Part shown: in pieces, positions 1,419 to 43,600 of the stretch
Numbering within the stretch: position 1 is the first letter of the stretch
How the letters are laid out: the number at the start of each line of letters is the position of its first letter
Assembly (NCBI GenBank): GCA_029261855.1
Contig: JAJDAN010000089.1
Location: 124,001-188,000 of the forward strand
Length of the DNA stretch: 64,000 bases
Direction of reading: 5' to 3'
Origin: Deltaproteobacteria bacterium
GTDB taxonomy: Bacteria > Myxococcota_A > UBA9160 > UBA4427
Notes under the pieces: generated by a model
What the model was told of the DNA's origin: nothing
Database searches by the model: none
Seen by the model: only the letters and a program-made list of their open reading frames with translations
Position numbers and translations under genes: made by a program

Positions 1419-2069
1419 TTATGGGCGAATACGCCGCCGGCCGAGCGCGAGCGCGATGCCCGCGCTGAGCAGCAGGCCCGTGGTCGGCTCGGGAACTACG
1501 CCGCCGACGGTCTCCGAGCTCGCACCCGATACGAGGGATGTCCCCTGCACGTGGAGCGCTGCCATCGCTGCGATCGAGCCCCCCGAAGCGAAGGAGGGTG
1601 CCGCAGCCAGGAAGGCCTCGAGATCGAGGGACAACGAGGTGTCCACCGGCGCGATCCGGAAGCTGGCGGTGGTCAGCTGACCGTTGCCGGGCGGACCGGC
1701 GCCATTGCCGAACGACACGCCGTAGTCGAAGTCGCTTCCGGCACCACCCGCCACGGGCGGCGCCAGCGAGAGTACGTACGCGGTCGTGACTTCGTCGTCC
1801 GAGGTGATCGACAGCTCCGGGATCGCACCGTCGAGGTTGAAATAGAAGCGATGGAGATCGGCGTCCGGGCCGAGCGCGTCGCGTAGCGCGATCTCGAACA
1901 GCAGGCCCGTGCCGTCCTGGACGACTTCGACGTCCGCATAGCTTCCTTGCAGTCCGTCATCGAACTCGACATCGAGCGTGAAGGCGACCGCCTGCGCGGA
2001 CTGCGCCAGCAACAAGCTCGCCCCCGCGATCGCGATCCCGCCCATCCAACGCCTGGTCTGTCGAAGCAT
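1419..2069 (-). CDS. PEP-CTERM sorting-domain protein
   Basis: A 216-residue exported protein. A signal peptide occupies about residues 1-28 (basic RRW start, hydrophobic core, cleavage near AQA). The C-terminus has the tripartite PEP-CTERM signal: Val-Pro-Glu-Pro near residue 193, a hydrophobic span of about 15 residues and a terminal Arg-rich tail (GRRRIRP). Such proteins are cleaved and anchored or released by exosortase (EpsH/XrtA type) in Gram-negative bacteria that make exopolysaccharide. The middle is acidic and beta-rich, with no catalytic motif, and may be a cohesin-like or structural domain. No exosortase is in the window, so the processing enzyme must be encoded elsewhere. Confidence 0.85.
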   Translation of the reverse strand: MLRQTRRWMGGIAIAGASLLLAQSAQAVAFTLDVEFDDGLQGSYADVEVVQDGTGLLFEIALRDALGPDADLHRFYFNLDGAIPELSITSDDEVTTAYVLSLAPPVAGGAGSDFDYGVSFGNGAGPPGNGQLTTASFRIAPVDTSLSLDLEAFLAAAPSFASGGSIAAMAALHVQGTSLVSGASSETVGGVVPEPTTGLLLSAGIALALGRRRIRP

Positions 2070-2198
2070 GCCGACACGCCTTCCCTACGCAGCCTGCCCT
2101 CTACCGGGCGGCTACCAGGGAAGTGGGTGTCGATGCGCGGATGTGGCAAACCGCGGCAAGAACCCCGCGGGCGACGCTCTCTACGATTCGCGCAGGGC

Positions 2199-3209
2199 TC
2201 AGCGACGCGAGCGCAGGCCCAGGTTCACGATCTTCTGCAGGAAGGCCGGGTACTCGAGACCGGCGGCCTTGGCGGCGGTGGCGGCCTCCTCGCCGTCGGC
2301 GAGCTCGGGGTTCGGGTTGGCTTCGAGGAAATAGAACTCGCCGTCTTCGCCGAGACGGAAGTCGAGGCGTCCATAGCCGCGCAGCTCGAGGGTCCGGTAG
2401 GCCCGACGCGAGATGCGGTCGAGCTTTCGCCGCTGCAGGTCGGTCAGATCGGGAGCGATCAGGTCGACCTTCTTCTTTTCCTGGTAGGCCGCGTCGTGCT
2501 TGACCTTCTCGGTCGCGATCAGCGGCTCCCCTTCCGCGCGCCCACCGATCACGAGTTCCTGGGGCGGCAGGACCTGGAGGCGCTCGTTGCCGAGCACGGC
2601 GACGTAGATCTCGCGGCCTGGAATGAACTCCTCGACGATGGCGTCGGTGCCGACGCGATCGTGAACGAACTGAACGCGTTCTTCCAGCTTCTCCACGTTG
2701 TTCACGATCGAGGCCTTGGCGATGGCGATCGACGCCTCTTCGACCAACGACTTCACGATGAGCGGAAACTGGAGCCGTCGCGGAAGCCTCGTCTTGCGGC
2801 CGAGGCGCGCCACGAAGAAGCGGGGCACGCGCACCCGGTGGTAGATCATCAGCTTCTTCGCGAGGGACTTGTCCCGGGCGAGCATCAGTCCGCGGGGGCC
2901 GCAGCCCGTGAAGGGTACGCCCAACAGCTGCAGGTAGGAGACGATCGCGTGGTCATAGACGGCCTCCTCCTGGAATTCTTCGAGCAGGTTGAAGACCAGG
3001 TGCGGCTTCCAGGTGACGACCGCCCGTCGGATGGGTAGGAGCTCTTCGCGCACCCCGAGCTGCCGGACCTCGTGGCCGAGCGCCCGCAAGGTCGTGACGA
3101 CGCCCCACTCGGTCTTGATGTCGTGGACCTGCTGCTCGCTCAGGCCATCGAGCGAATCCGGCACGACGTGATCCTCGTGGCTGAGGACGAGGATGCGACG
3201 CTTGCGCAT
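2199..3209 (-). CDS. ATP-grasp ligase, D-Ala-D-Ala ligase-like
   Basis: A 336-residue ATP-grasp enzyme. The N-terminal half has the nucleotide-fold pre-ATP-grasp region (residues 5-105). ATP-binding lysines lie near 125 and 173, the loop EEFIPGREIYVAV near 205, and the metal-binding strand pair DFRLGEDGEFYFLEANPNP near 290-310, with the Glu and Asn that coordinate magnesium. Such enzymes join a carboxylate, as acyl-phosphate, to an amine; the substrate is not identifiable. It lies directly downstream of a zinc-peptidase gene on the same strand (40-bp gap), so a ligase plus peptidase acting on the same peptide is likely. The ATG has an AAGGAG ribosome site six bases upstream. Confidence 0.82.
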   Translation of the reverse strand: MRKRRILVLSHEDHVVPDSLDGLSEQQVHDIKTEWGVVTTLRALGHEVRQLGVREELLPIRRAVVTWKPHLVFNLLEEFQEEAVYDHAIVSYLQLLGVPFTGCGPRGLMLARDKSLAKKLMIYHRVRVPRFFVARLGRKTRLPRRLQFPLIVKSLVEEASIAIAKASIVNNVEKLEERVQFVHDRVGTDAIVEEFIPGREIYVAVLGNERLQVLPPQELVIGGRAEGEPLIATEKVKHDAAYQEKKKVDLIAPDLTDLQRRKLDRISRRAYRTLELRGYGRLDFRLGEDGEFYFLEANPNPELADGEEAATAAKAAGLEYPAFLQKIVNLGLRSRR

Positions 3210-29532: not shown

Positions 29533-30777
29533 GTGAGCACGCCCGCCATCCCCGACTTCTCCGACCCCGAGACCTTCGAACGCGCCATGCCCCACGAATC
29601 ACTCGCCTGGCTACGCGCGAACGAACCGATCTACTGGCAGCGTGCGAAAAGTGGCGCGCGCCCCGTGGGCATGGACGACTGGCCCGAAGCCCGAGGCTTC
29701 TGGTTGGTCACTCGCTACGACGATCTGCAGACGATCTCGCGCGACCAGGCGACTTTTTCGTCCGAGCGCGGGACCACCGTCGTCCGTGACATCTCGCCCG
29801 ACCTGCTCGATCGACTGCGCATCTGGATGATCAACCAGGACCACCCGCGTCACACGCGGCTGCGCAAGCTCATCAACGCCGGATTCACACCGCGGATGAT
29901 CCAGCGCATGGAGCAGCACATCCGTGATCTGACCCGAAGCGTCGTCGACGGCGTCGCCCGGCGCGGCACCTGCGACTTCGTCGCCGATGTTGCCGCCGAG
30001 CTACCCCTGCTGGTGATCGCCGAGCTGGTGGGCGCGCCCGTCGAAGACCGCGCCAAGCTCTTCGACTGGAGCAATCGACTGATCGGATTCGAGGACCCCG
30101 ACCTGCAAGGCCCGACTGGGCAGCAGGACACCATGCTCGAGATGTTCGAGTACGCGGGCGCCCTGGCAAAACTCCGCAGAGATGACCCGCGCGAGGACCT
30201 CACGTCGGTACTCGTCAACGCCGAGGTCGACGGGGAGAAGCTCGATGAGCTCGGCTTCAACATGTTCTTCATCCTTTTGATCCTGGCCGGCAACGAGACC
30301 ACCCGCAACGCGATCTCCGGCGGGATGCTGGCGCTGTCCGAGCACCCGGACCAGAAGCAGCGTCTGGTCAGCGACCGCGACCTGCTGCCCACGGCCACGG
30401 ACGAGATCCTGCGCTTCGTCAGTCCCGTCATCTACATGCGCCGCACGGCCACGCGGGACGTCACCCTGCGCGGGCAGAAGATCGCCGAGAACGACAAGGT
30501 GGTGCTCTGCTATCCGGCGGCGAACCGCGACCCGGCGATCTTCTCGCCACCCGACGCGTTCGACGTCACCCGCGACCCGAACCCGCACGTGGCCTTCGGC
30601 TACGGACCCCACTACTGCCTCGGCGCCAACCTCGCGCGGATGGAGATCCAGTGCATCTTCGACGAGCTACTGCGGCGCTTGCCTGACATCGAGGTCGCGG
30701 GCCCCGTTCGGCGCCTGCGTTCGACGGTGGTGAACAGCGTCAAGTCGTTGCCCGTACGCTTCACGCCCGAAGGCTGA
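29533..30777 (+). CDS. Cytochrome P450
   Basis: A 414-residue soluble bacterial P450. The I-helix oxygen-binding motif is LAGNETTRN (251-259), the ExxR pair is in DEILRF (about 290-295), and the haem loop FGYGPHYCLGANLAR has the ligand Cys362. The 'DPNPHVAFGYGPHYCLG' context and NQDHPRHTRLR are typical of the CYP class near CYP125/CYP142 and other proteobacterial lipid or terpenoid hydroxylases. No ferredoxin gene is adjacent, so its redox partner is elsewhere. GTG start with GGAGGT six bases upstream. The 3' end overlaps the convergent epoxide hydrolase gene by 17 bp. Confidence 0.93.
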   Translation: MSTPAIPDFSDPETFERAMPHESLAWLRANEPIYWQRAKSGARPVGMDDWPEARGFWLVTRYDDLQTISRDQATFSSERGTTVVRDISPDLLDRLRIWMINQDHPRHTRLRKLINAGFTPRMIQRMEQHIRDLTRSVVDGVARRGTCDFVADVAAELPLLVIAELVGAPVEDRAKLFDWSNRLIGFEDPDLQGPTGQQDTMLEMFEYAGALAKLRRDDPREDLTSVLVNAEVDGEKLDELGFNMFFILLILAGNETTRNAISGGMLALSEHPDQKQRLVSDRDLLPTATDEILRFVSPVIYMRRTATRDVTLRGQKIAENDKVVLCYPAANRDPAIFSPPDAFDVTRDPNPHVAFGYGPHYCLGANLARMEIQCIFDELLRRLPDIEVAGPVRRLRSTVVNSVKSLPVRFTPEG

Positions 30778-31741
30778 CACGGTCGAGCCAGGCGATCAGA
30801 CGCTGGTTCACGACGTCCGGCGCTTCCTGCTGCATCCAATGGGCCACCTTCTCGACGAGGTGAAGCTCGAGGTCCGAGCAGAGCGCTCGCATGGGCTCCG
30901 CGAACTCGGGGCGCAAGCCCGGGTCCCATTCGGCCGTCAACATCAGGCACGGGAGGGAGAGCGGTTGGGTGCCCAGGGCGGGATGCTCGTCCGCGTTCCG
31001 GTCGATGTTGCGATACCAGTTGATGCCCCCGCGGAAGCCCGTGCGTTCGAAGACCCGGCAGTAGTGGTCGAGGTCCTCGGCGCTGCCGAGCCGCTCACCC
31101 AGCACCGGCCAACGGGCCGCTCCTCGAAACGGGTTCATGTCGAGACTGCCACTCGCGAGCGCGAAACGCAGCACCTGCTCGAGGGGCACGCCCGTGCGAA
31201 AGACGCGCGTCAGGATGGCGCGAACGTTGGCGTCCATCTCGGCTTCCGCGATTCCGGCTTCCTGGAACCACGCCACGTACTGCCGCTCGACGGCGCCCCC
31301 TACGACCCGGAGATGCGTTGCCACGCTCGGGAACGGCATGTACGGGGTGCAGAGGCCCGCGACCCCGAGCACGCGTTCGGGGTGGAGCACCGGCATGGCC
31401 CAGGCCACGAAGCCTCCCCAGTCGTGGCCTACGAAGTACGCGCGCTCGATGTCGAGCGCATCCAGCAGCCCGACGAGGTCGCCCGTGAGATCGGCGATCC
31501 CATAGTCGGTGACGTCCGGCGGTGCACTGCTGGCCCCGCACCCTCGCTGATCGGGTGCGATCGCGCGGTAGCCCGCTTCGGCGACCCGGGCGAGCTGATT
31601 GCGCCAGCCGAACGCGACATCGGGGAAGCCGTGGCAGAAGACCACGGCCGGGCCCGACCCGACCTGGTGCGTAGAGAGCGTGATCGGGTCTTCGCGTGCT
31701 CGCGTCGGGAGCTGGATGGGTGTCGCGGAGGGGAACGGCAT
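30761..31741 (-). CDS. Epoxide hydrolase (alpha/beta fold)
   Basis: A 326-residue soluble epoxide hydrolase. It has the HGxP oxyanion motif HGFPD (37-41), DQRGCGAS (64-71), and the nucleophile elbow VGHDWGG with Asp107. The C-terminal acid and His lie in EWDPGL and VEKVAHWMQQEAPD. The cap region includes residues that normally supply the two ring-opening tyrosines (for example INWYRNI). It would convert epoxides to diols and is plausibly linked to the neighbouring P450, whose 3' end overlaps it. It is divergent from the envelope-acylation operon that starts at 31813. Confidence 0.92.
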   Translation of the reverse strand: MPFPSATPIQLPTRAREDPITLSTHQVGSGPAVVFCHGFPDVAFGWRNQLARVAEAGYRAIAPDQRGCGASSAPPDVTDYGIADLTGDLVGLLDALDIERAYFVGHDWGGFVAWAMPVLHPERVLGVAGLCTPYMPFPSVATHLRVVGGAVERQYVAWFQEAGIAEAEMDANVRAILTRVFRTGVPLEQVLRFALASGSLDMNPFRGAARWPVLGERLGSAEDLDHYCRVFERTGFRGGINWYRNIDRNADEHPALGTQPLSLPCLMLTAEWDPGLRPEFAEPMRALCSDLELHLVEKVAHWMQQEAPDVVNQRLIAWLDRVSLRA

Positions 31742-31812
31742 CGCGCGAGCATATCGGAGAGCGCAGCCCGCCCGCGCCCTGCGATAGAGTCGGCCCAGGG
31801 ACGGAGTCGGCG

Positions 31813-32796
31813 ATGATTCAGGACAGCGACGAGTGGCTGCACGAGGTCGGGAGCGACCCCGCCTGGCAGGAGAGCTTCTACTTCAACTGGGCCGATCCCG
31901 CGCGCCGAAGCTTTACCCTGGCTCGAACGGGCTACCGCTTCCACCCGCGCAAGACCGACGGACTGGCGATCTCCCTGCGCGACGGCGAGCTCGAGCTCTA
32001 CTACGGCCCGGCAGACCTCGACCACGAAGGAGACTGCAGCGACGAAGACCCCGCGCGGGGCATGCGCGCCGGCGATCTCGTCGTGACGATGCTCGAGCCC
32101 CTGCGGCGCTGGCGCCTGCAGATCGAAGGCGAGCGGGGCATGGACGTCGTCTTCGAGGCCCATACGCCGGCCTTCGACTATTCCGGACAGGACACGGGAG
32201 GACACGGGGGAAAGCTCGCGCGCACGATGACGGGCGCACACTTCGAACAGTCGGGCCGCGTCACGGGCTGGACGCAGTTCGGCGGGGATGATGCGCAGCG
32301 CCACGAGATCGATGCCCTCGGTCAGCGCGACAAGTCCTGGGGCGTCCGCGATTGGGATCGCCTCGAAGGTTGGGAGTGGATCAGCGGCCAGATCGGTGCG
32401 GACTTCTGCTTCAACCTCATGCAGACGATCGAGGGGGGCGAACGCCTGGACAACGGCTTCGTCTTCCGGGACGGAGCGAATCACCCCATCGCGCGGGCAC
32501 GCATCGACTACGAATGGGCCGCGCAGGAACACCAGCTGCGCCACGCGTCGATCGAGCTGGTCGAGGCGGGCGGCCGCACCCATCGGCTGCATGCCGAGGC
32601 GCTCGGCGCCTTTCCCATCCCGCGAGGCGACGTCTGGCTCGAGGAGACGCACGTCGCCTACACGCTCGAAGCCTCGGAGCATCGCGCTCGGTGCGAGGGC
32701 ACCGGGGTCGTCGAGCACGTCTGGCGGGCCACTCCCGACGAGATCGGCGCGCGCGGCCACCGTCTCGCCGCCGTCCGGAAGGCGTTGCGACCATGA
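31813..32796 (+). CDS. Lipocalin-like AttH/CrtC-type protein (hypothetical), first gene of acylation operon
   Basis: A 327-residue, Trp/Tyr-rich beta protein without signal peptide or membrane helix. The two-domain beta layout (WQESFYFNWADP near 17, then DKSWGVRDW near 178-186 at the second domain) resembles the AttH/CrtC hydratase-type lipocalin pairs and the DUF7064/7065 proteins found with lipid genes; I assign no reaction. GGAG lies seven bases before the ATG and a TAGAGT hexamer lies at 31785-31790. It overlaps the hydroxylase gene by ATGA (32793-32796). The tight coupling through seven genes suggests it works with the acylation machinery. Confidence 0.7.
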   Translation: MIQDSDEWLHEVGSDPAWQESFYFNWADPARRSFTLARTGYRFHPRKTDGLAISLRDGELELYYGPADLDHEGDCSDEDPARGMRAGDLVVTMLEPLRRWRLQIEGERGMDVVFEAHTPAFDYSGQDTGGHGGKLARTMTGAHFEQSGRVTGWTQFGGDDAQRHEIDALGQRDKSWGVRDWDRLEGWEWISGQIGADFCFNLMQTIEGGERLDNGFVFRDGANHPIARARIDYEWAAQEHQLRHASIELVEAGGRTHRLHAEALGAFPIPRGDVWLEETHVAYTLEASEHRARCEGTGVVEHVWRATPDEIGARGHRLAAVRKALRP

Positions 32797-33728
32797 CCAC
32801 GGCACCCCGGGCCTTCCAGTGGGCGGTGTTCCCGGTGGTGATGGGTGCCGCCGTCGCGGGATCGATGCTGCTCATGGCAACGGGGACGCCGGCACCCGAG
32901 TCGATCCTGGTGCCCCAGCTGAGCGCGTTCGCGGTGGTGGCGGTGCTCGAGCACGTCTACCCCCATCACCGCAGCTGGAACCGACCCCGGCGCGACGTCC
33001 GCGTCGACGCCACCCACAGCATCACGATCGCGCTACTCGTCGCGCTGGCGACGCCCTTCGTACTGGCCGGCGGCGTTGCCGTCGGCGGCTGGTTGTCCTC
33101 CGAGATCGGTATCGGGTTCTGGCCCACCCACTGGCCGCTACTCGCCCAGACCGCGCTGGCGCTGGTCGTCGGCGAACTGCCGGGCTATTGGGTCCACCGC
33201 TTCGAGCACCAGTGGGACGGCCTCTGGCGCTTCCACGCCGTACACCACAGCGCCCCGCGCTTGTACTGGCTGAACGCCGGCCGCTTCCACCCGATCGATA
33301 CGCTGCTCACCTTCGTGCCGTCCTACGGGCTACTCGTCGTGCTCGGCTGCGGCATCGAGACCCTGGCGCTGTTCACCCTCATCACCGCCGTGCACGGCAT
33401 CTTCCAGCACGCGAACCTGCAGCTGCGTCTCGGCCCACTCAACCACTTCTTCAGCATGGCCGAGCTTCACCGCTGGCACCATTCGAAGACCGTCGACGAG
33501 GCGAACCACAACTACGGTCAGACCGTGATCGTGTGGGACACGCTCTTCGGCACGCGCTTCCTTCCGGCCGACCGCGAGCCGCCGGAGGAGATCGGGATCC
33601 CGAACCTCCCGAGCTTCCCGATGACGTGGTGGGCGCAGATCCGATCGCCCTTCCGTTGGGACCGGATCCGACGTGACAGTGAAGCGACCGCCCGGACCCT
33701 GGAGACGTCGCGTGCCGCCGATACCTGA
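32793..33728 (+). CDS. Sterol desaturase/fatty acid hydroxylase-family membrane enzyme
   Basis: A 311-residue integral membrane diiron enzyme. The His boxes are HRFEH (HxxxH, about 133-137), HAVHH (HxxHH, about 147-151) and HRWHH late in the protein, with intervening His residues; four hydrophobic helices lie in the first 210 residues. The fold hydroxylates or desaturates lipids such as sterols, sphingoid bases or fatty acids. It starts by ATGA overlap with the previous gene and overlaps the next gene by 17 bases. In this operon it may prepare or modify the acyl chain that is later transferred; this is inference. Confidence 0.88.
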   Translation: MTTAPRAFQWAVFPVVMGAAVAGSMLLMATGTPAPESILVPQLSAFAVVAVLEHVYPHHRSWNRPRRDVRVDATHSITIALLVALATPFVLAGGVAVGGWLSSEIGIGFWPTHWPLLAQTALALVVGELPGYWVHRFEHQWDGLWRFHAVHHSAPRLYWLNAGRFHPIDTLLTFVPSYGLLVVLGCGIETLALFTLITAVHGIFQHANLQLRLGPLNHFFSMAELHRWHHSKTVDEANHNYGQTVIVWDTLFGTRFLPADREPPEEIGIPNLPSFPMTWWAQIRSPFRWDRIRRDSEATARTLETSRAADT

Positions 33729-36606
33729 TCCGGGGAACGCTGCGATCTTCCGCGAGGCGCTGGCGTGCCCCGGGTGCCACCAGGCCTTCGAGATCGAGAC
33801 CGCGACCGGCGACGCTACGGGCCTCGATTGCTTCCTGCTGTGCCGGCGCTGCCGGACCACAACTCCCGTGATCGCCGGTTTCCCCCTCTTCGGCGAGACA
33901 CGCCGCGACACGGATGCGGGGGATTCCGACTGGCTCGGCGAGCAGCGTGCGCGCTGGCTCGATGCCGAGACCTTCACCGACTTCCTGAACACCAAGGCGG
34001 AGCGCAACCTCTACGACGGCTATGCGTTCTTCCAACCCTTCAACGAATCCAGCCGCTCGCTGCTCGCACTGACGGGCGTGTTGCGCGAGCAGCTGTCTCC
34101 CGGCGACCGGATCCTCGACACCTGGTGCCGAACGGGTTGGACGGGCGAGTGGCTCGCATCCCTGTTTCCGGACCAGCAGGTGCTATCGATCTGGGAGGGC
34201 AACTCGAACGTCCTGGGCTACCGGGGCTTCGCCTATTGGCTGAGCGCGGAACGACGTCTCCCCAACCTCACGATCGTCTTCACGCACCCCGACGAGGCCC
34301 TTCCCCTGGCCGATGGCTGTATCGACCTGGTGGTCGGCCTCGATTCGCTCCACCGCTACGCGCCCGACGTCTTCCTATCCGAATGTCGCCGCGTCGCGCG
34401 GGACGCCGCGGTGCTCTTCTTCCCGCACGTCCATCTCAGCAACAGCGAGCCGGACCCGTTCTTCGAACGGGGTTGCCGACAGCTACACGGTCGCGAGTGG
34501 AAGGCACAGCTCGACCCGCTCTTCGTCGACCGCCCGAACTCCGCCTACCTGCTCGCCGAGCCGGACCTCTTCGACTGCGGGGACGAGTTCGCGATCTGCG
34601 ACGATCCGGACACGGCTCACTACAACGCCGCGGTCCTGATCGCCGCGCGGAGCTGGCAGGGCCGCCGCGTCCGAACCGAACATCGGCGCCCCTGCGAAGG
34701 GACCGATCGTCTCGTGACCAATCCCCTGCTGCGGATCGACCTCGACACGGCGACGGTCACAGTCCGCCAGGCCGACGACGCGGCTCGGGACATCCTCGAA
34801 CGTCATCCCATCTATGAAGAGCGCCTCGCCAGGGTGCTCGGTTCGCGCCTGTCCGATCTCGAGGTCCAGGTCCTCTTCCTGGCCGCCGGCGCGCTCACCC
34901 TCGCGGAGATCGCAGACGCCCTGGCGATCTCCGGGCCGGTGGTGCTGGCCGCCGTCGATCGTCTGCGGGAACGGGAGATCGTGTTCGCAGCCTCGGTCTC
35001 CCAGGCGATGGCGAGACTCCAGGACTACTACGGAAGTCTTCGCGTGCAGCGCGACCTGCCGGCGCACTTCGCCGACCTCTATCCCGGTCTGGGCGAGCGC
35101 TACGGCGAGGCGCCCTTGATCCTCGCCGAGGATGGATCGGAGTACGACTGGCCGGCGGTCTCGAGTCTCGTGGCCGCCACTGCACATTGGCTGCTGGAAG
35201 AAACGGCCGCCCAGGACCGGGTACTCATCCACACCCCGAACTGCCCCGAGCTTCTCCTCGTCGTGTGGGCGTGCTGGCTGACGGGGCGCATCGCCGTCCC
35301 CGTCGATCCGACCCTGCCCGCGGATGTCGTGCACCAGATCGTCAGCCGCATGTCCCCGGCCATCGTCTTCTCGGATCTCGATCTCGACCGCGAGTGCCTC
35401 GCCTTCGACAGCCTGACCCCGGACCCGGAAGACGGCACGGACGGACCGACGCGCGCCTTCTACTCGGATCGCATCGCCCCCCATCTCGATCGGGAGGCGG
35501 GCTTCATACAGGAACCGAAGCCCCACGATACGGCGCTGGTGCTCTTCACGTCGGGCTCGACGGGGACACCGAAAGCGGTGCGACTCGACCAGCGCGGGCT
35601 GCTCCACAGCGCGCACGAGCTGGCTCGACACTTCGACTGGAAGCCGGGCGAAAGACTTCTGTCTCTCGGTCCGGCCCACACCATGAGTGGGCTGCGAAAC
35701 CCCGCGCTAGCGGCACTCGTAGCCGGCGCGACGGTGGTCGTGCCCGACCCGGGCCTGATGCTCCCGGCCCGGGTACTTCGACTGCTCGGCGAGCACGACA
35801 TCGACATCCTCGCGACGGTACCGGCGCTGCTTCAGCAGCTGCGCGCATCCCGGGACCGACTGCTGCAGGAAGCTCGCCCGCCCCGGCTGCAGCTGATCCT
35901 GACCACCGGCCAGGCACTGCCCCAGAGCACCTGCAGCGAGATCGAGGCCTGGTTGGGCGCACCCGTGCGTTCCTACTACGGCCTCACGGAAACCGGCGGC
36001 ATCTGCACCGCCGACCCCCTCGACGGCCGGCTCGAGGGAGACCTGGGAGTCCCGGCCGGCGCGATCGCCCAGATCATGAACGGCGATCGGGTCCTGACAG
36101 GGCCGGGCGACGGCGAGGGGAGAGATGAGAAGGAGGGCGAGGAAACAGGTGAGCTGCGGATCTTCAGCCCCTCGAACATGCTCGGCTACTGGGAACCCTC
36201 CACGCCGAGCTCGGTCCGGCAGCAGGACGGCTGGATCCGGACGGGCGACATCGTCCGGCGCATGTCCGACGGCTCGCTCTCTTTCGTCGGGCGAGTCGAC
36301 GACCAGGTCAAGAACCGCCACGGCGAGTTGCTCTACCTCCAGGAGATCGAGCGCGTGGCCCTGTCCGTCCCGGGTCTCGCCGACGCATGCTGCCTCGAGC
36401 GGCCCGACGAAGAAGGCGGCGGGCTGGTGCTGTTCGCCGTGCTCGCCCCGGGGCGGGATGCGACGGAAACACGCAACCGGCTTCTTCAGGAAATCGACCG
36501 CGTCCTGGGGCTCAAGAAACGGCCGGACGACGTGCGCGCCGTTTCGGAGATCCATCGCGCGTCGAACGGCAAGGTCGACCGGAGTAGGATGTTCGGATGC
36601 AGCTAG
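33712..36606 (+). CDS. Trm112-like / methyltransferase-like / AMP-binding fusion protein
   Basis: A 964-residue fusion. Residues 15-60 hold a zinc ribbon (CPGC at 19-22, CRRC at 44-47) like the Trm112-type leader of methyltransferases. Residues about 100-290 resemble a class I methyltransferase, but motif I reads LDTWCRTGWTG, so the SAM glycine loop is degraded. Around 370-430 lies a winged-helix-like segment. The last 490 residues are an adenylation domain: TSGSTGTPK (about 613), YYGLTETGG, TGD, a DltA/NRPS-like A8 GRVDDQVKNRHGELL and SNGKVDRSRM. I chose GTG 33712 because GGAG lies seven bases upstream; GTG 33673 has none. It overlaps the next gene by 10 bases. Confidence 0.82.
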   Translation: MPPIPDPGNAAIFREALACPGCHQAFEIETATGDATGLDCFLLCRRCRTTTPVIAGFPLFGETRRDTDAGDSDWLGEQRARWLDAETFTDFLNTKAERNLYDGYAFFQPFNESSRSLLALTGVLREQLSPGDRILDTWCRTGWTGEWLASLFPDQQVLSIWEGNSNVLGYRGFAYWLSAERRLPNLTIVFTHPDEALPLADGCIDLVVGLDSLHRYAPDVFLSECRRVARDAAVLFFPHVHLSNSEPDPFFERGCRQLHGREWKAQLDPLFVDRPNSAYLLAEPDLFDCGDEFAICDDPDTAHYNAAVLIAARSWQGRRVRTEHRRPCEGTDRLVTNPLLRIDLDTATVTVRQADDAARDILERHPIYEERLARVLGSRLSDLEVQVLFLAAGALTLAEIADALAISGPVVLAAVDRLREREIVFAASVSQAMARLQDYYGSLRVQRDLPAHFADLYPGLGERYGEAPLILAEDGSEYDWPAVSSLVAATAHWLLEETAAQDRVLIHTPNCPELLLVVWACWLTGRIAVPVDPTLPADVVHQIVSRMSPAIVFSDLDLDRECLAFDSLTPDPEDGTDGPTRAFYSDRIAPHLDREAGFIQEPKPHDTALVLFTSGSTGTPKAVRLDQRGLLHSAHELARHFDWKPGERLLSLGPAHTMSGLRNPALAALVAGATVVVPDPGLMLPARVLRLLGEHDIDILATVPALLQQLRASRDRLLQEARPPRLQLILTTGQALPQSTCSEIEAWLGAPVRSYYGLTETGGICTADPLDGRLEGDLGVPAGAIAQIMNGDRVLTGPGDGEGRDEKEGEETGELRIFSPSNMLGYWEPSTPSSVRQQDGWIRTGDIVRRMSDGSLSFVGRVDDQVKNRHGELLYLQEIERVALSVPGLADACCLERPDEEGGGLVLFAVLAPGRDATETRNRLLQEIDRVLGLKKRPDDVRAVSEIHRASNGKVDRSRMFGCS

Positions 36607-38450
36607 ACGAAGAGCACCCGGCCGCCACGAGCTTCTACGCGCTGGCCTCCGCCCAGAAGGCCAGCAAGGTCTTTCTCGAGCGAGACCCGGGACTTCGCTA
36701 CGGCGAGCTTCGCGATCGCATCGGCGCCCTGACGAGCTACCTCGACCAGACGGAGCTGGAACCGGGCGACCGGGTCGTCATCGCCTCGCGAGACCCTTCC
36801 TGGGTCACTGCGCTGCTGTTCGCGCTCATCGACAACGGCTTGACGGCGGTCATCGCGGCGCCGGAGATGACGCGCCGCGAGTTCGACGTGTTGTGCGACG
36901 TGACCAACCCGGCCGGCTGCTTGATGGACACCCCGACCTCGGCGCGCTGCGGCGCACCCGAGCGGACCTGGAAGCTGATCCTGCCCATCGGGAAGCCGTC
37001 GAAGCGCAATGTCCTCGACAAGCTGCTTCGCGCGAAGAAGCCGAATCCGGCAGCGGACCACCTCCAGGCGGCACTCGGCGCGGTGAAGCCGCAGGCGCCG
37101 CCCGGCGCCTGGCCCGACGACCAGACCGCCTACGTGATCATGACCTCGGGCTCGACCTCCACCCCCAAGGCGGTCCCGTGCACGCGACGAGCCCTCTTCA
37201 CCCATCTGCGAACCCTGAGCAGACAATTCTCGTACGGACCCGACTCGCGCATCCTGAACCTGCTGCCCCTGTCCCACGCCGACGGCGTCATCCAGGGCCC
37301 GGCGGTGGCGTGCGCGAACGGCGCAACCTGGCTCCGGCCCTTCGACTTCAGCATTCGGAACATCGAACCCCTGCTGCATTCCATCTACGGCAAGCGCGCC
37401 ACGCATCTCATCTGCGTCCCGACCGTGCTGGCGCTGGTCCTGCGCCTGGGCTCGAAGTTCGCGGACAGCTTCGCGACGGACGACTTCCGCTTCGTCGTTT
37501 CGGCCGCGGGCCACCTCGAAGAGAAGCTGTGGAAGGACTTCCAGGACACGTTCGGAGTGACCATCGCCAACCTCTACGGCCTCACCGAAACGGTAACGGG
37601 CGGCATCTTCAGCGGCCCCGACCCGGACAGCCACCGCGTCGGATCGATCGGCAAGCCCGTGGACTGCGAGGCGCGTGTCGTCGACGAAGAAGGCAACGAA
37701 GTGGGTGCAGGAACTTCGGGCGAGCTGTTGCTGAGGGGCGACAACGTCTTCCCGGGCTATCTGAACGCGCCCGATCAGGACGTCTTCCTCGCAGGCTGGC
37801 TGCGGACCGGTGATCTCGCGCATCGGGACGCCGCGGGCTTCTTCTACATCGACGGTCGCATCAAGAACGTCGTCATCTCGGGCGGTGAGAACATCCATCC
37901 GGAAGAAGTGAGCGAGCTGCTTCAGACCCATCCGAACGTCGCCGAGGCCTTCGCGTTCGGTGTCCCCCACCGCGAATGGGGCGAGAACCTGGTCGCGCTG
38001 ATCGTCCCGCGCAGCGCCGACGACTTCGACGAGCCCGGTCTGGTCGCCTGGTGCCGGGATCAGCTGTCCGCCTACAAGGTCCCGAAGGACTGGCTCGTCG
38101 TCGACGCGCTGCCGCACGGCCCCTCCGGCAAGGTCCTCGCCCAGGACGCCAAGCGCGCCTATCAGGAGCGGCGCCGCCAGGGAAGCGCGCTGTCCGGGGC
38201 AAGCGTCGAGCAGAACGTCCTCGCCATCGCTGCCGACGTCTTCCGCTGCCCGGTCGACGCACTGAGCCTGCGATCGTCACCGGAAAACACGTCCGGCTGG
38301 GATTCGCTCGCCCACGTGAACCTGGCCCTGACCCTGGAAAGCGCGTTCGGGATCGAGCTGTCGACCACCGAGATCATGCAGATGTCGGACCTCCGGTCGA
38401 CCGTGGAGATCGTCGAGACCCGAACGGGGAGCGCCGGGGAAAGCCGCTGA
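36597..38450 (+). CDS. Acyl-AMP ligase fused to acyl carrier protein
   Basis: A 617-residue protein. Residues 1-520 form an adenylate-forming ligase: TSGSTSTPK (183-191), LYGLTETVTGG, TGDLAHRD, GRIKNVVISGGENIHPEE and the C-terminal Lys in PHGPSGKVLAQ. The A8 segment is of the acyl-CoA synthetase/fatty-acyl ligase kind, not the D-alanine kind. Residues 530-610 are a carrier domain with GWDSLAHVNL, where Ser570 would carry phosphopantetheine. So the enzyme can activate an acid and load it on its own carrier arm, joining the roles of DltA and DltC in one chain. The start lies 10 bases inside the previous gene, and the end overlaps the next by CTGA. Confidence 0.9.
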   Translation: MQLDEEHPAATSFYALASAQKASKVFLERDPGLRYGELRDRIGALTSYLDQTELEPGDRVVIASRDPSWVTALLFALIDNGLTAVIAAPEMTRREFDVLCDVTNPAGCLMDTPTSARCGAPERTWKLILPIGKPSKRNVLDKLLRAKKPNPAADHLQAALGAVKPQAPPGAWPDDQTAYVIMTSGSTSTPKAVPCTRRALFTHLRTLSRQFSYGPDSRILNLLPLSHADGVIQGPAVACANGATWLRPFDFSIRNIEPLLHSIYGKRATHLICVPTVLALVLRLGSKFADSFATDDFRFVVSAAGHLEEKLWKDFQDTFGVTIANLYGLTETVTGGIFSGPDPDSHRVGSIGKPVDCEARVVDEEGNEVGAGTSGELLLRGDNVFPGYLNAPDQDVFLAGWLRTGDLAHRDAAGFFYIDGRIKNVVISGGENIHPEEVSELLQTHPNVAEAFAFGVPHREWGENLVALIVPRSADDFDEPGLVAWCRDQLSAYKVPKDWLVVDALPHGPSGKVLAQDAKRAYQERRRQGSALSGASVEQNVLAIAADVFRCPVDALSLRSSPENTSGWDSLAHVNLALTLESAFGIELSTTEIMQMSDLRSTVEIVETRTGSAGESR

Positions 38451-39358
38451 GGGACCGGGGCGCGCTCATCTGGTTGGCGACCCTGCTTGCCGGGCTACTC
38501 GGCTGCGCCTCGGTCATCGCTGGCTTCCACGCCCTGCATCGGGGCGCGGACGTGGAATGGAAATTCTACGACCCGACCTTCCTGTACGCACTCCCCGGAA
38601 GCGCCGAGGAATTGATGGCCGAGGGTTGCGACGAGCACACGGTCTTCGCCCTGGGAAGCTCGGTGATGCTCGCGGCGTTCGACACGCTCCCCTCCCGGCC
38701 GGCTGGACGCTGGACGCTGACCTCGACCGAGATCGATTCGAAGCGAGAGCTGCGCATCCTGACGCGCTACGGCAGCACCGACCTGCGGCTCTTCTACCCG
38801 CTGATCCGCACACTTCCGAGCTGCCCCAAGACGATCCTCCTTCACAGCGACGTGTTCGTGGCACGCGACTTCAAGAGTCCGAAGCCGGGCGACTTCTACT
38901 TCACCTTCGTCGAGCGGTTGCGCGACCGCGTCGAGCGCCTGTGGCCGGACTTTCTGCAGAAGCAGATGCGCCAGGAAAGCATACGTCCCGTGGGCGAGTG
39001 CGACGCCGCCTGCCTCGCGAAGCGACGGGACGCCATGGACAGGCGCTTCGGCGACTTCCACGCCCTCGAACCCGACCACCTCGAGATCGTCCGCGAGCTG
39101 GTCGCGAACCGCGCACGGGTCGTGATCCTCGACGTCGGCCGCAGCGAGCGGCTCGAAGCCGAGTTCGTCGCAGAACTCGAACGCTTCCGAGCAGCCGTGG
39201 AATCCGTTGGCGAGGCGGAACCGGGAGTCCGCTACCTCGCGTTTGCCCCCCAGAAGAACGAGTTCTACGCGGACTACACCCACCTCAACCGAGAAGGCCG
39301 GGCGACCTTCGGGAAGTGGATCGCGACGACCGCCGCGTTCCGGGACCCGCGCCCTTGA
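38447..39358 (+). CDS. Membrane-anchored SGNH protein, DltD-like
   Basis: About 303 residues. The N-terminal hydrophobic helix (about 7-28) would anchor it with the rest in the periplasm, as for DltD. The first SGNH block is FALGSSVMLAAFD (Ser72, the third residue of Gly-Ser-Ser, is the likely nucleophile), and the last is ADYTHLNREGR with Asp276 and His279 in the DxxH arrangement. Spacing and length agree with DltD/AlgX-type acyl-transfer proteins. It presumably hands the acyl group to the final acceptor. The start is uncertain: CTG 38447 gives a CTGA overlap like its neighbours and a basic N-terminus; TTG 38474 is an alternative. Confidence 0.75.
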   Translation: MRDRGALIWLATLLAGLLGCASVIAGFHALHRGADVEWKFYDPTFLYALPGSAEELMAEGCDEHTVFALGSSVMLAAFDTLPSRPAGRWTLTSTEIDSKRELRILTRYGSTDLRLFYPLIRTLPSCPKTILLHSDVFVARDFKSPKPGDFYFTFVERLRDRVERLWPDFLQKQMRQESIRPVGECDAACLAKRRDAMDRRFGDFHALEPDHLEIVRELVANRARVVILDVGRSERLEAEFVAELERFRAAVESVGEAEPGVRYLAFAPQKNEFYADYTHLNREGRATFGKWIATTAAFRDPRP

Positions 39359-40512
39359 GCCTCGCCGGCCTGTCGCTCCTGCCGTTGTGGGCCGCCTTCG
39401 TCGCGGTCTTCTGGGTCACTCCGCGAAGGCTGCAGATCCATCTCCTCATCGCGTCCGGAACCGGGTGGATGATCTTCGCGCGCGAAGCCGAATCGTGGCT
39501 CCTGCTCGCGGCATTGTCTCCCGCCTGCTTCTTCCTCGCGAAGTCCGGAGCACAACGAGGTCGCAGCATCGGAGTCGCCGGCCTGGTCATCGTCCTGCTG
39601 GGCTACAAGCTCGTCCAGGACTACGCAGGAGACCGGACCGTCGGCGAATCCGCCGAGCCCTTCGTCCTGCTCGGCGCGAGCTTCTATCTGCTGCGCCTGG
39701 CCCACTACCTGATCGAGTCGCAGAAGCGCGCCCTGCCGGATCACTCGCTCGGCCAGTTCCTCGCCTATGCGTTCTTTCTTCCCACGCTGACGGTGGGACC
39801 GATCAATCGCTTCCCGGAGTTCCTGCGAGACGAGCACCGCCGGCGTTGGGACGCGAAGCTCTTCGTCGCCGGTCTCGAGCGGATCCTCTTCGGTCACTTC
39901 AAGGTGATCGTCGTCGCCAACTACCTGGTCCAGACCAAGCTGGGGGTCGTCGCCGCGGAGCTGGGAGGCGACCAGACGCGGCTCGGCGCCTATCTCCATT
40001 GCCTCGAGTACGGGCTGGACCTGTACTTCCGCTTCGGCGGCTACTGCGACATCGCCATCGGTCTGTCTGCGCTGCTGGGCTTCCGCATCGCCGAGAATTT
40101 CGACTATCCGTTCTTCCGGCCGAACATCAACCGGTTCTGGCAGAGTTGGCACATGTCGCTGTCGAGCTGGTGCAGGGACTACGTATTCGCTCCGATCGCG
40201 TTCAGCCTGCGACGACCGTCCGCGGGTGTGATCGCGTCGATGCTGATCTTCGGCCTCTGGCACGAAGTTTCGCCGCGCTACGTCGTCTGGGGCTTCTATC
40301 ACGGGGCGGGGATCCTGGCCTGGCAGCAGTGGCAACGCGTCCGCACGGCCATCCCACCCGGCTGGAGGCTTCCGCCGGCGATCGCCACGCCGGTCTCGAC
40401 GCTACTCACCGTGAACTTCGTGATCCTGAGCTTTGCCATCACCCGGAGCGATACGCTTACCCAGGCGATGGCGATCCTGCGGGTGATCTTCCTGGGAGAG
40501 GCAACGCGATGA
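39355..40512 (+). CDS. MBOAT-family membrane O-acyltransferase (DltB/AlgI-like)
   Basis: A 385-residue protein with about ten to twelve membrane helices. MBOAT signatures are TVGPINRFPEF (about 146-156), FGGYCDIAIGLSALLGFRIAENFDYPF (split; about 227-253), NRFWQSWHMSLSSWCRDY (259-276, with His266) and the catalytic-region FGLWHE and GFYHGAG (His303, His316). DltB and AlgI relatives take an acyl group from a cytosolic carrier and pass it through the membrane. Start TTG with TTGA overlap to the SGNH gene. It ends in ATGA overlap with the 47-residue microprotein gene. Confidence 0.93.
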   Translation: MSLAGLSLLPLWAAFVAVFWVTPRRLQIHLLIASGTGWMIFAREAESWLLLAALSPACFFLAKSGAQRGRSIGVAGLVIVLLGYKLVQDYAGDRTVGESAEPFVLLGASFYLLRLAHYLIESQKRALPDHSLGQFLAYAFFLPTLTVGPINRFPEFLRDEHRRRWDAKLFVAGLERILFGHFKVIVVANYLVQTKLGVVAAELGGDQTRLGAYLHCLEYGLDLYFRFGGYCDIAIGLSALLGFRIAENFDYPFFRPNINRFWQSWHMSLSSWCRDYVFAPIAFSLRRPSAGVIASMLIFGLWHEVSPRYVVWGFYHGAGILAWQQWQRVRTAIPPGWRLPPAIATPVSTLLTVNFVILSFAITRSDTLTQAMAILRVIFLGEATR

Positions 40513-40652
40513 TGTATCTGTGGCTCGTGCGGAAGCTCGGTTCGCCGGTCCGGGCAGCCCTGGTCTCGGTTCTCGTCTACATCCTGCTGGCGCTCGCGAT
40601 CGCCATGTACTCGGAGCTACCCGACCACAGCCTGCGCTACCTCGAGATCTGA
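40509..40652 (+). CDS. DltX-like single-span microprotein
   Basis: A 47-residue protein. A basic start (MMYLWLVRKLGSPVRAA) is followed by one membrane helix (about 18-34) and a short tail ending Ser-Leu-Arg-Tyr-Leu-Glu-Ile. The family knowledge used is that DltX is a roughly 50-residue protein encoded in dlt operons whose extreme C-terminus has a conserved Tyr flanked by hydrophobic residues and is needed for acyl transfer between DltB and DltD. Here Tyr44, Leu42 and Leu45/Ile47 reproduce that pattern. It overlaps the MBOAT stop by ATGA and is the last gene of the operon, before the separate NAD-glutamate dehydrogenase gene. Confidence 0.75.
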   Translation: MMYLWLVRKLGSPVRAALVSVLVYILLALAIAMYSELPDHSLRYLEI

Positions 40653-40687: not shown

Positions 40688-43600
40688 ATGGACGACACCG
40701 CTCTCGAAGCCCTTGTCTCGAGCGCATCCGAACGAATCGCCGCGGACGACCGCCCCCTCTTCGACCGCTGCGCGAGGCGGCTGCTCGAGGGCGTCGAGTC
40801 CCACCCCAGCGGTGGACCGGTTGCCCTCGCCGCCCTGACGACGGAGGCCTTCGAGTGGATCCGGTTGCGGGAGCCGGGGCAGACCTGCGTCCGCGTGCGG
40901 AACTGCCCGGACCGACCGGGCCACAGCGTGCTCGAGACGCTCCAGGACGATCGCCCCTTCATCCTCGACACCCTCGAGCTGGTGCTGGCGCGCTTTGGGG
41001 TCCAGGAACGCCTGGTCATCCACCCCATCCTGCGGGTCGTCCGGGACGCTTCGGGTCAGCTGCTCGACATCCAGCCGGGCTCGAACGGCGAGCCGAGCGA
41101 GTCCTACGTCTATATCGAGTTCACGCCGCCGATCGAGGCGCCGCGCCGTCTCCGCGAGCTCGAGAATCACGTGCGGCAGGTGATGTCCTGGGTGGCCGAC
41201 GTCACCGAGGACCACCGCCGCATGATCCGCGCCGTCCGCGAGCTCAGCGCGAACCTCGAGTTCGCGGGGCCCTCCATCGAGGGCGGGACCAACCGCACCG
41301 AGCGCGTCCAGAGCTTTCTCGACTGGGTGATCGACGGCCGCTTCCTGCTCGTCGGGACCCGCCGCTACCGGGCCAGCCGAGCCGGCGGCGAGCTCGAGGT
41401 CCAGATCATCCCTCAGACCGGGCTCGGGATGTGGCGAGACGACGGTGCCAGCCGGTTGAAGGAGCCCTTGCGCGGAGACGCGGTCCCCGCAGAGATCCGG
41501 GAAGACCTCGAGGACCCGCGCATCATCCTGATCAGCAAGTCGCACATGGAATCGCGCATCCACCGCGCGGGCCGGCTCGACCGCATCTTCGTCAAGGAAC
41601 ACGACGAAGGGGGAAATCTCACCGGCTTCACGATCCTCGTCGGGCTCTTCACACGCCGCGTCCTGCGCACGCCGGGGTCTCAGATCCCGCTGCTGTCCGA
41701 ACGCCTGCGCGAGCTGATCGATCGCATGGGCCTGACCTATGGGTCGCACGCGCACCAGGCCATCGTCACGGCCTTCGACTCGCTCCCCGTCGAGCTGCTG
41801 GTGGGCGCCGACGTGGATCGTCTCGCCGACCTGCTTCCCGAGCTGGTATCGGCCGCGTCCGCGAAGTCCGTACGGCTGGTGACTCGAACCCACCCGCGCG
41901 GGCGGCTTCTCTATGCCGCCATCGTGATCCCGCGCGAGCACTACCGCGAGGACCTGCGGGTCGAGATCCGACAGCTGCTGATGCGGCGCACGGGCGCTCG
42001 CTTCATCGACGACCGCACCTCCTTCGTCGAGGAAGGTGCCGCGATCGTTCACTGCTTCTGCACCTCCGCAGAAGGCGAGACGATCCACGCCGATCTGTCG
42101 CGCCTCGAGGAGGAGGTGCGGCAGCTGTGCTCGCCCTGGGAAGACCAGCTGCTCGACGCCCTGCGCGAGGCCCTCGACGGCGACGCGGCCCGCAGTCTCG
42201 CCGCGCGCTACGAACGCGCCTTCCCAGAGACCCTCCACGTCGCCACCCACGCGACGGATGCGGTCCGCGACGTACGGGGTCTCGAAGCGCTGGCAGAAGC
42301 CGGGCAGCCCCAGTGCGCGCTCTTCTTCGATCGCGACGATGACGAACGCGAAACCTCGACCCTTCGCCTCTATCTGGCCGAAAGTCCCCTGCTTTCGGAT
42401 GTCCTTCCGATCGCCGACCACTTCGGCCTCCAGGTGCTGGACGCCCAGCTCTTCGAGATCTCGCCGGCGGATCGGCCCGAATGTTTCATCGAATCCCTGC
42501 GGATCCTGCCGCTCGGCACCACCCAGGACGATCTCGACGCCATCTCCCCCAACCTGTCCGACGCGCTCCAGGCCACGCTGACCGGCGAGATGCAGAGCGA
42601 CGCGCTCAACGCTCTCGTGCTCGCCGCCGGCCTCGACTGGCGACAGGTCGACCTGCTGCGGGCCTATCAGGAGTACTTCCTTCGCATCCAGGGCGTGCTG
42701 TCGAGGCCCTACCTATGCCGCGTATTGATCGACAACCCGGTCGCCGCACGCATGCTCGTGCACTGGTTCGAGGCGCGCTTCGATCCGACTCTCGACGACA
42801 CCCAGCGGGCACCTCGGGCGCAGGACCTCGAGCAGGCGCTGCAGTCCTACCGGGACCGCATCACCGCGCTCAATGAGGACCGGGCCCTACGGGGCTTCTT
42901 CGACCTGATCCGCGCGACGGTGCGAACCAACTATTTCGCGCCCGCCTCCCGGCCGCACCGAGTCGTCCTGAAGTTCGACCCACGCGGGATCGGCGAGCTG
43001 TCGGGCGTGGTTCCGCATCGGGAAATCTTCGTGCACTCGGCCGAGCTCACGGGCATCCACCTGCGCGGCGGACCGGTCGCGCGCGGCGGACTGCGCTGGA
43101 GCGACCGCCACGACGACCTGCGCGTGGAAGTCCTCGATCTCATGAGCACCCAGATGCTCAAGAACGGGATCATCGTCCCGGTCGGCGCGAAGGGCGGGTT
43201 CGTCATGCGCCGCGAGGGACTCTCGCCCGCGGAAGCGCGTGCCGGCGCCGACGAGCAGTACCGCGTCTTCATCGCGAGCCTGCTGGACGTGACCGACAAC
43301 CTCTCTCCCGAGGGTAACGTCCTGCCGCCGGCGGGCGTGCTCCGATTGGACGGCGACGACCCCTACCTGGTGGTGGCAGCCGACAAGGGGACCGCGCACC
43401 TCTCGGACACCGCGAACGAGATCGCGTTGAGCCGGGACTTCTGGCTCGGCGACGCCTTCGCATCCGGTGGGTCGGAGGGCTACGACCACAAGCGCTACGC
43501 GATCACCGCGCGCGGCGCATGGGAATGCGTCAAGCACCACCTCTTCGGTCTCGGGGTCGACCCGGAACGAGACAGCTACGAGGTCGCGGGCATCGGCGAC

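Follow-up and report, generated by a model that had tools for sequence, protein, structure and literature searches.

The window analysed here is a stretch of 64,000 nucleotides from a Deltaproteobacteria bacterium (contig JAJDAN010000089.1), in which seven overlapping or closely spaced genes follow one another on the forward strand:

g1, 31813-32796, + strand: DUF7065/DUF7064 (Rv3169-like) protein; outside the system discussed below
g2, 32793-33728, + strand: FA_hydroxylase family protein, under the OlsE cut-off; outside the system
g3, 33712-36606, + strand: 964 aa, GTG start; Trm112-like zinc ribbon, class I methyltransferase-like domain, winged-helix-like region and AMP-forming ligase
g4, 36597-38450, + strand: 617 aa; AMP-forming acyl ligase with a C-terminal carrier domain (Ser in GWDSL)
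g5, 38447-39358, + strand: N-terminal membrane anchor followed by an SGNH domain (GSS ... DYTHL); start CTG at 38447 or TTG at 38474
g6, 39355-40512, + strand: 385 aa, TTG start; DltB-type MBOAT
g7, 40509-40652, + strand: 47-aa single-span DltX-like microprotein with basic N-terminal residues and the C-terminus LRYLEI

All seven frames listed in a preliminary description of this DNA are present, with the overlaps of 4, 17, 10, 4, 4 and 4 bases that it gave. The codon at 38447, with which g5 would begin, is CTG; a standard start codon first occurs in frame at 38474 (TTG), and with that start the 4-base overlap with g4 is replaced by a gap of 23 bases. A Pfam scan assigned DUF7065/7064 to g1, FA_hydroxylase to g2, AMP-binding to g3, AMP-binding and PP-binding to g4 and MBOAT to g6, and returned no domain match for g5 and g7. 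The NAD-glutamate dehydrogenase is a separate gene 3' of g7 (at 40688), and the domain scan also placed a P450 gene near the operon. A recent foreign origin of g3-g7 was considered and rejected, since there is no sign of it in the composition: in both GC and GC3 these genes resemble their neighbours.

Judged from gene content and order in related genomes, g3-g7 (33712-40652) form a conserved five-gene unit, and g1-g2 belong to a different conserved unit. In a contig from another family of the same taxonomic order (L141), an alpha/beta hydrolase gene, g1 and g2 are found at 76, 77 and 87% identity in the layout of the window, again with a 4-base overlap between g1 and g2, and without g3-g7. The divergent unit of alpha/beta hydrolase, g1 and g2, which is 76-87% identical between the two families, occupies 30761-33728 in the window and 6270-9189 in L141. 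Orthologues of g1 (63-80% identity) were found in 6 of the 40 relatives searched, including genomes that lack a g5 match; a single-sequence search with g5 gave matches in 0 of 60 relatives. The relatives of g3-g7 (L040-L042 and L050), in turn, are without g1 and g2, i.e. the hydroxylase does not travel with the unit. The preliminary description had taken all seven genes as one pathway with g3 among its unusual front genes; g1 and g2 are ruled out as members by L141 and by the g1 orthologues in genomes without a g5 match, and g3 turns out to be part of the core, being present together with g6 orthologues in genomes of the class as well as in Nitrospina.

Within the phylum the five-gene unit is rare. 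Of 379 genomes surveyed there with g6, two gave close full-length relatives of it (42-43%), and full-length g3 orthologues at E ≤ 1e-120 occur in exactly those 3 of the 91 class genomes that have close g6 orthologues. The contigs of the two g6 relatives (L040 and L041) and a third contig (L042) carry the ligase-carrier, the SGNH protein, the MBOAT and a microprotein of 45-49 aa in the order seen in the window. The unit is complete in L040, from the same taxonomic order, apart from a TGA within the MBOAT frame (L040:2749-3891), which points to either an error in sequencing or a decaying gene. The L042 locus reads ligase, ligase-carrier, SGNH, MBOAT, X. In L041, from a genome of the same family as the host, g4-g7 lie together and g3 is on another contig, which makes two loci for the five genes. 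Because g3 stands on another contig in one of the three class genomes (G007), its co-occurrence with g6 is not just hitch-hiking. In a scan of public genomes, Nitrospina sp. MSP (L050) was among the matches listed, with g3-g7 all in order and without g1 and g2, while tblastn against plasmids returned no close relative, only the DltABCD control. As to the possibility, raised at the outset, that MBOAT and SGNH genes would occur in relatives without the ligase and the microprotein, the close relatives all carry both.

The only strong solved relatives of g6 are DltB proteins (E about 5e-44), and it shares 28% identity with the DltB of an L. oris plasmid (E 3e-34; hhalign 99.8%), but its score of 172 bits stays under the TIGR04091 DltB equivalog cut-off of 375 bits. 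His266 and His303 are kept in every one of ten relatives. Ordinary MBOATs carry FxYFxF at their own end, and short MBOATs are paired with a separate microprotein; g6 has the length of DltB and ends in IFLGEATR, so that the PatA/AlgI-type shuttle hexapeptide is absent from its own C-terminus. In a maximum-likelihood tree (unrooted, with a sample chosen by similarity to g6 and with DltB as a long branch), one branch (99/96) has DltB and 12 split MBOATs on one side and 27 MBOATs with a fused shuttle motif on the other, and this branch persists after removal of the C-terminal extension. In this tree g6 lies on the DltB/split side, as a DltB-type MBOAT with the His pair and without a fused motif.

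The shuttle motif that g6 lacks is found at the end of g7, a separate DltX-like microprotein with a C-terminal Phi-x-Y-x-x-Phi. Only 1 of the 911 frames of at least 30 aa in the window ends in [hydrophobic]-x-Y-x-x-[hydrophobic], and that frame is g7, so that its ending is more than a chance match. The microproteins of the relatives were called by coding score and not by motif, and the motif was then found in them; Tyr is the sole invariant residue across ten microproteins, the closest of which also share M-Y-x-W-L with g7 near the start. The motif of g7 begins with L and not with F (FRY, FGY or FAY in the relatives). When a profile of these microproteins was run over the host genome, with neighbouring genes disregarded, g7 was recovered at 1e-13 (being itself a profile member), followed by a weak second match (E-value 0.03) to a 41-aa ORF ending in FIYQEF, directly behind an SGNH gene.

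This second microprotein (G000:C88:22034-22126; with its neighbourhood, L184:1498-1623 and 1607-2782, minus strand) lies behind an SGNH gene of 391 aa and marks a second split module in the host genome; its contig also carries a short MBOAT with an ACP and a ligase (L046), some 22 kb off. At two other loci (L044:8737-13867 and L049:5356-10548) a sulfotransferase is placed between an amino-acid-type ligase and the MBOAT, SGNH and microprotein (FRYAGF) genes, i.e. another donor flavour. Split modules indeed vary in their partners, which may be two ligases (L042), an amino-acid-type ligase and a sulfotransferase (L044, L049) or a methyltransferase (L043). Microproteins ending in FIYVDF (L062:3547-3657, Candidatus Chisholmbacteria) and WIYQGF (L052:8139-8267, Anaerolineae) each lie beside an MBOAT without a fused motif, from which it follows that the split type reaches other phyla.

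For g5, both GSS and DYTHL are present, and five relatives all share G70, S72, D276 and H279. Its AlphaFold model is weak (pLDDT 56), as is that of the N-terminal half of g3 (pLDDT 49), and both were used at the fold level only. At that level, Foldseek matched the g5 model with a probability of 1.00 to the GDSL/SGNH esterase EstL5, to DltD (7dxm) and to PatB, and a fold other than SGNH, against which the preliminary description had staked its assignment, was not found. With the Ser of block I, the DxxH of block V and the predicted fold, g5 can be classed as a putative SGNH hydrolase/transferase. Of the 26 weak matches to the g5 profile, 19 lie within 1.5 kb of an MBOAT gene; against PDB sequences the profile gave chance matches only. 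As an anchored SGNH protein with GSS and DxxH the earlier assignment of g5 therefore stands, but its identity as DltD is rejected at the level of the family model: PF04914 (the DltD family) has no match in the whole genome, and hhalign of g5 against one DltD gave 0.1%.

The g4 product combines an AMP ligase with a phosphopantetheine carrier (PP-binding match 2.2e-5; Ser570 in GWDS invariant), which it is predicted to load and which, unlike DltC, is fused to the ligase. Among solved structures it comes closest to oxalyl-CoA and malonyl-CoA ligases. The amino-group Asp of DltA (FDxS) is absent from both ligases, the corresponding column being His227 in g4 and Thr in g3, while FD is found in that column in the control L. 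oris DltA and in the L044 and L049 ligases; this bears out the earlier proposal of an acyl-type rather than a D-Ala-type ligase. The invariant H227-x-D229 of g4 aligns with FHxHG of the oxalyl-/malonyl-CoA ligases, with Asp in place of the second His, an alignment that is suggestive of the donor, not decisive. In g3 the Trm112-like ribbon matches 6zxw (1e-6) and the fold of the N-terminal half matches a class I methyltransferase. However, the glycine-rich motif I (GxGxG) of SAM-dependent methyltransferases is absent from g3 in 4 of 4 homologues: in the methyltransferase-like domain (33712-35043) motif I reads D-T-W-C-R-T-G-W (DIWCRTGW in L040), a form kept in all four across phyla, with W and R at positions of Gly, so that the initial glycines of the SAM loop are replaced.

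The host genome encodes LpxC (E 1.5e-97) and gave no match to Glyphos_transf (PF04464, a teichoic-acid polymerase family), which makes the host a lipid A-bearing diderm lacking this polymerase family, in agreement with the Gram-negative, LPS-type host that had been supposed. Dlt had also been described as known from teichoic-acid bacteria; it is not confined to these, as dltBAC and dltD have been reported in Dickeya, Pectobacterium and Photorhabdus (PMC3544676). The general kind is thus already known, and g3-g7 are a variant of it. These Gram-negative Dlt-like genes differ from g3-g7 in being annotated as D-alanine activating (PMC3544676).

With Dlt itself (DltA-D, DltX) the unit has in common a ligase with a phosphopantetheine carrier, an MBOAT without a shuttle motif of its own, a separate single-span microprotein with a C-terminal Phi-x-Y-x-x-Phi and a membrane-anchored SGNH partner. 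Unlike Dlt, it joins the carrier to an acyl-type ligase and a methyltransferase-like domain to a second ligase, has an SGNH protein that is not DltD by sequence, follows the order ligase-ligase/carrier-SGNH-MBOAT-X and belongs to an LPS-bearing host. The pairs of PatA/PatB (peptidoglycan O-acetylation), AlgI/AlgJ/AlgX and WssH type likewise combine an MBOAT, an SGNH protein and a shuttle Tyr, but in these the motif lies at the C-terminus of the MBOAT itself and acyl-CoA is used without a carrier (PMC12148441); in the tree, g6 and the 27 fused-motif MBOATs (PatA/AlgI type) lie on opposite sides of the 99/96 branch. The split modules of L044 and L049 share with the unit a carrier, ligase, SGNH protein, microprotein and short MBOAT, and differ in the DltA-like Asp of their ligase, the added sulfotransferase and a separate branch in the tree.

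Following these results, we consider it probable that g3-g7 provide their Gram-negative host with a Dlt-like system of transmembrane acylation, with an acyl shuttle and a donor other than D-alanine. The Dlt-type set of the preliminary description is thereby retained as far as the ligase, carrier, MBOAT, SGNH protein and DltX-like microprotein are concerned, without g1 and g2 and without a DltD. Gene content, catalytic residues, the shuttle motif, co-conservation and the place of g6 in the MBOAT tree are direct observations, while the order of transfer and its chemistry are modelled on the biochemistry of Dlt and PatAB (PMC12148441). By that analogy, g4 would convert an acid to its acyl-AMP and load it onto its own carrier domain, after which g6 would accept the acyl group from the thioester of the carrier on the cytoplasmic side and move it across the membrane to g7, onto Tyr44 (in LRYLEI). 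From this acyl-Tyr, g5 would take it over on its catalytic Ser (Ser72) and hand it to an envelope acceptor. The g3 protein might activate or prepare a second acid, or the same one, for the g4 carrier.

Several other readings have to be weighed against this one. Since all functional slots of Dlt are occupied, the closest solved relative of g6 is DltB, and the Gram-negative dlt genes of Dickeya have an effect on polymyxin survival (PMC3544676), the operon could be a true Dlt system that D-alanylates an anionic envelope polymer, its ligase having merely diverged. This is unlikely, given that the amino-group Asp seen in L. oris DltA and in L044/L049 is missing from g3 and g4, that g4 is nearest to oxalyl-CoA/malonyl-CoA ligases, that there are two ligases, and that PF04914 is unmatched in the genome. 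Somewhat less unlikely, yet still well behind, is that a small molecule or lipid is produced by the ligases and carrier, and that the MBOAT and SGNH protein acylate a lipid intermediate or the secreted product instead of an envelope polymer. The two ligases, the methyltransferase-like domain and the nearby P450 do resemble a biosynthetic cluster, and the rarity of the unit would fit this as well; however, the hydroxylase is not with g3-g7 in the relatives, and the targets of the MBOAT-SGNH pairs investigated to date are envelope polymers (PMC12148441). Finally, the 4- and 17-base overlaps that join g1, g2 and g3 in the window might suggest a single pathway of seven genes in which g1 and g2 produce or bind the lipid donor, which is very improbable in view of the separate hydrolase-g1-g2 unit with the identical overlap in L141, the close g1 orthologues in relatives without a g5 match and the lack of g1 and g2 beside g3-g7 elsewhere.

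According to an account from 2025, the use of a carrier and of a separate microprotein is confined to Dlt, other MBOAT/SGNH pathways using acyl-CoA and a fused motif (PMC12148441). Several of the loci described here, as far as their predicted genes go, contradict the statement that non-Dlt MBOAT/SGNH pathways lack a carrier and a microprotein (PMC12148441). No description of a split shuttle and carrier with acyl-type ligases in Gram-negatives was found in the open-access literature. A key 2023 Nat Microbiol paper on the shuttle may cover the Gram-negative split shuttle and carrier in part.

A wider picture can be offered tentatively, at somewhat less than an even chance: DltX-type microprotein shuttling may form a broad class in Gram-negatives, with carriers bearing several types of donor; D-alanylation in Firmicutes would be one of its branches, and the PatA/AlgI type with its fused motif would have arisen from it a single time. 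In the g3-g7 branch two ligases would then build a new donor on one carrier, giving an undescribed envelope ester. The split architecture is seen in Nitrospina, in a phylum of Gram-negatives and in further lineages, together with ligases that seem not to be specific for D-alanine. These split loci allow the range of donors and the origin of acyl shuttling to be tested. They point to an envelope ester that nobody has looked for.
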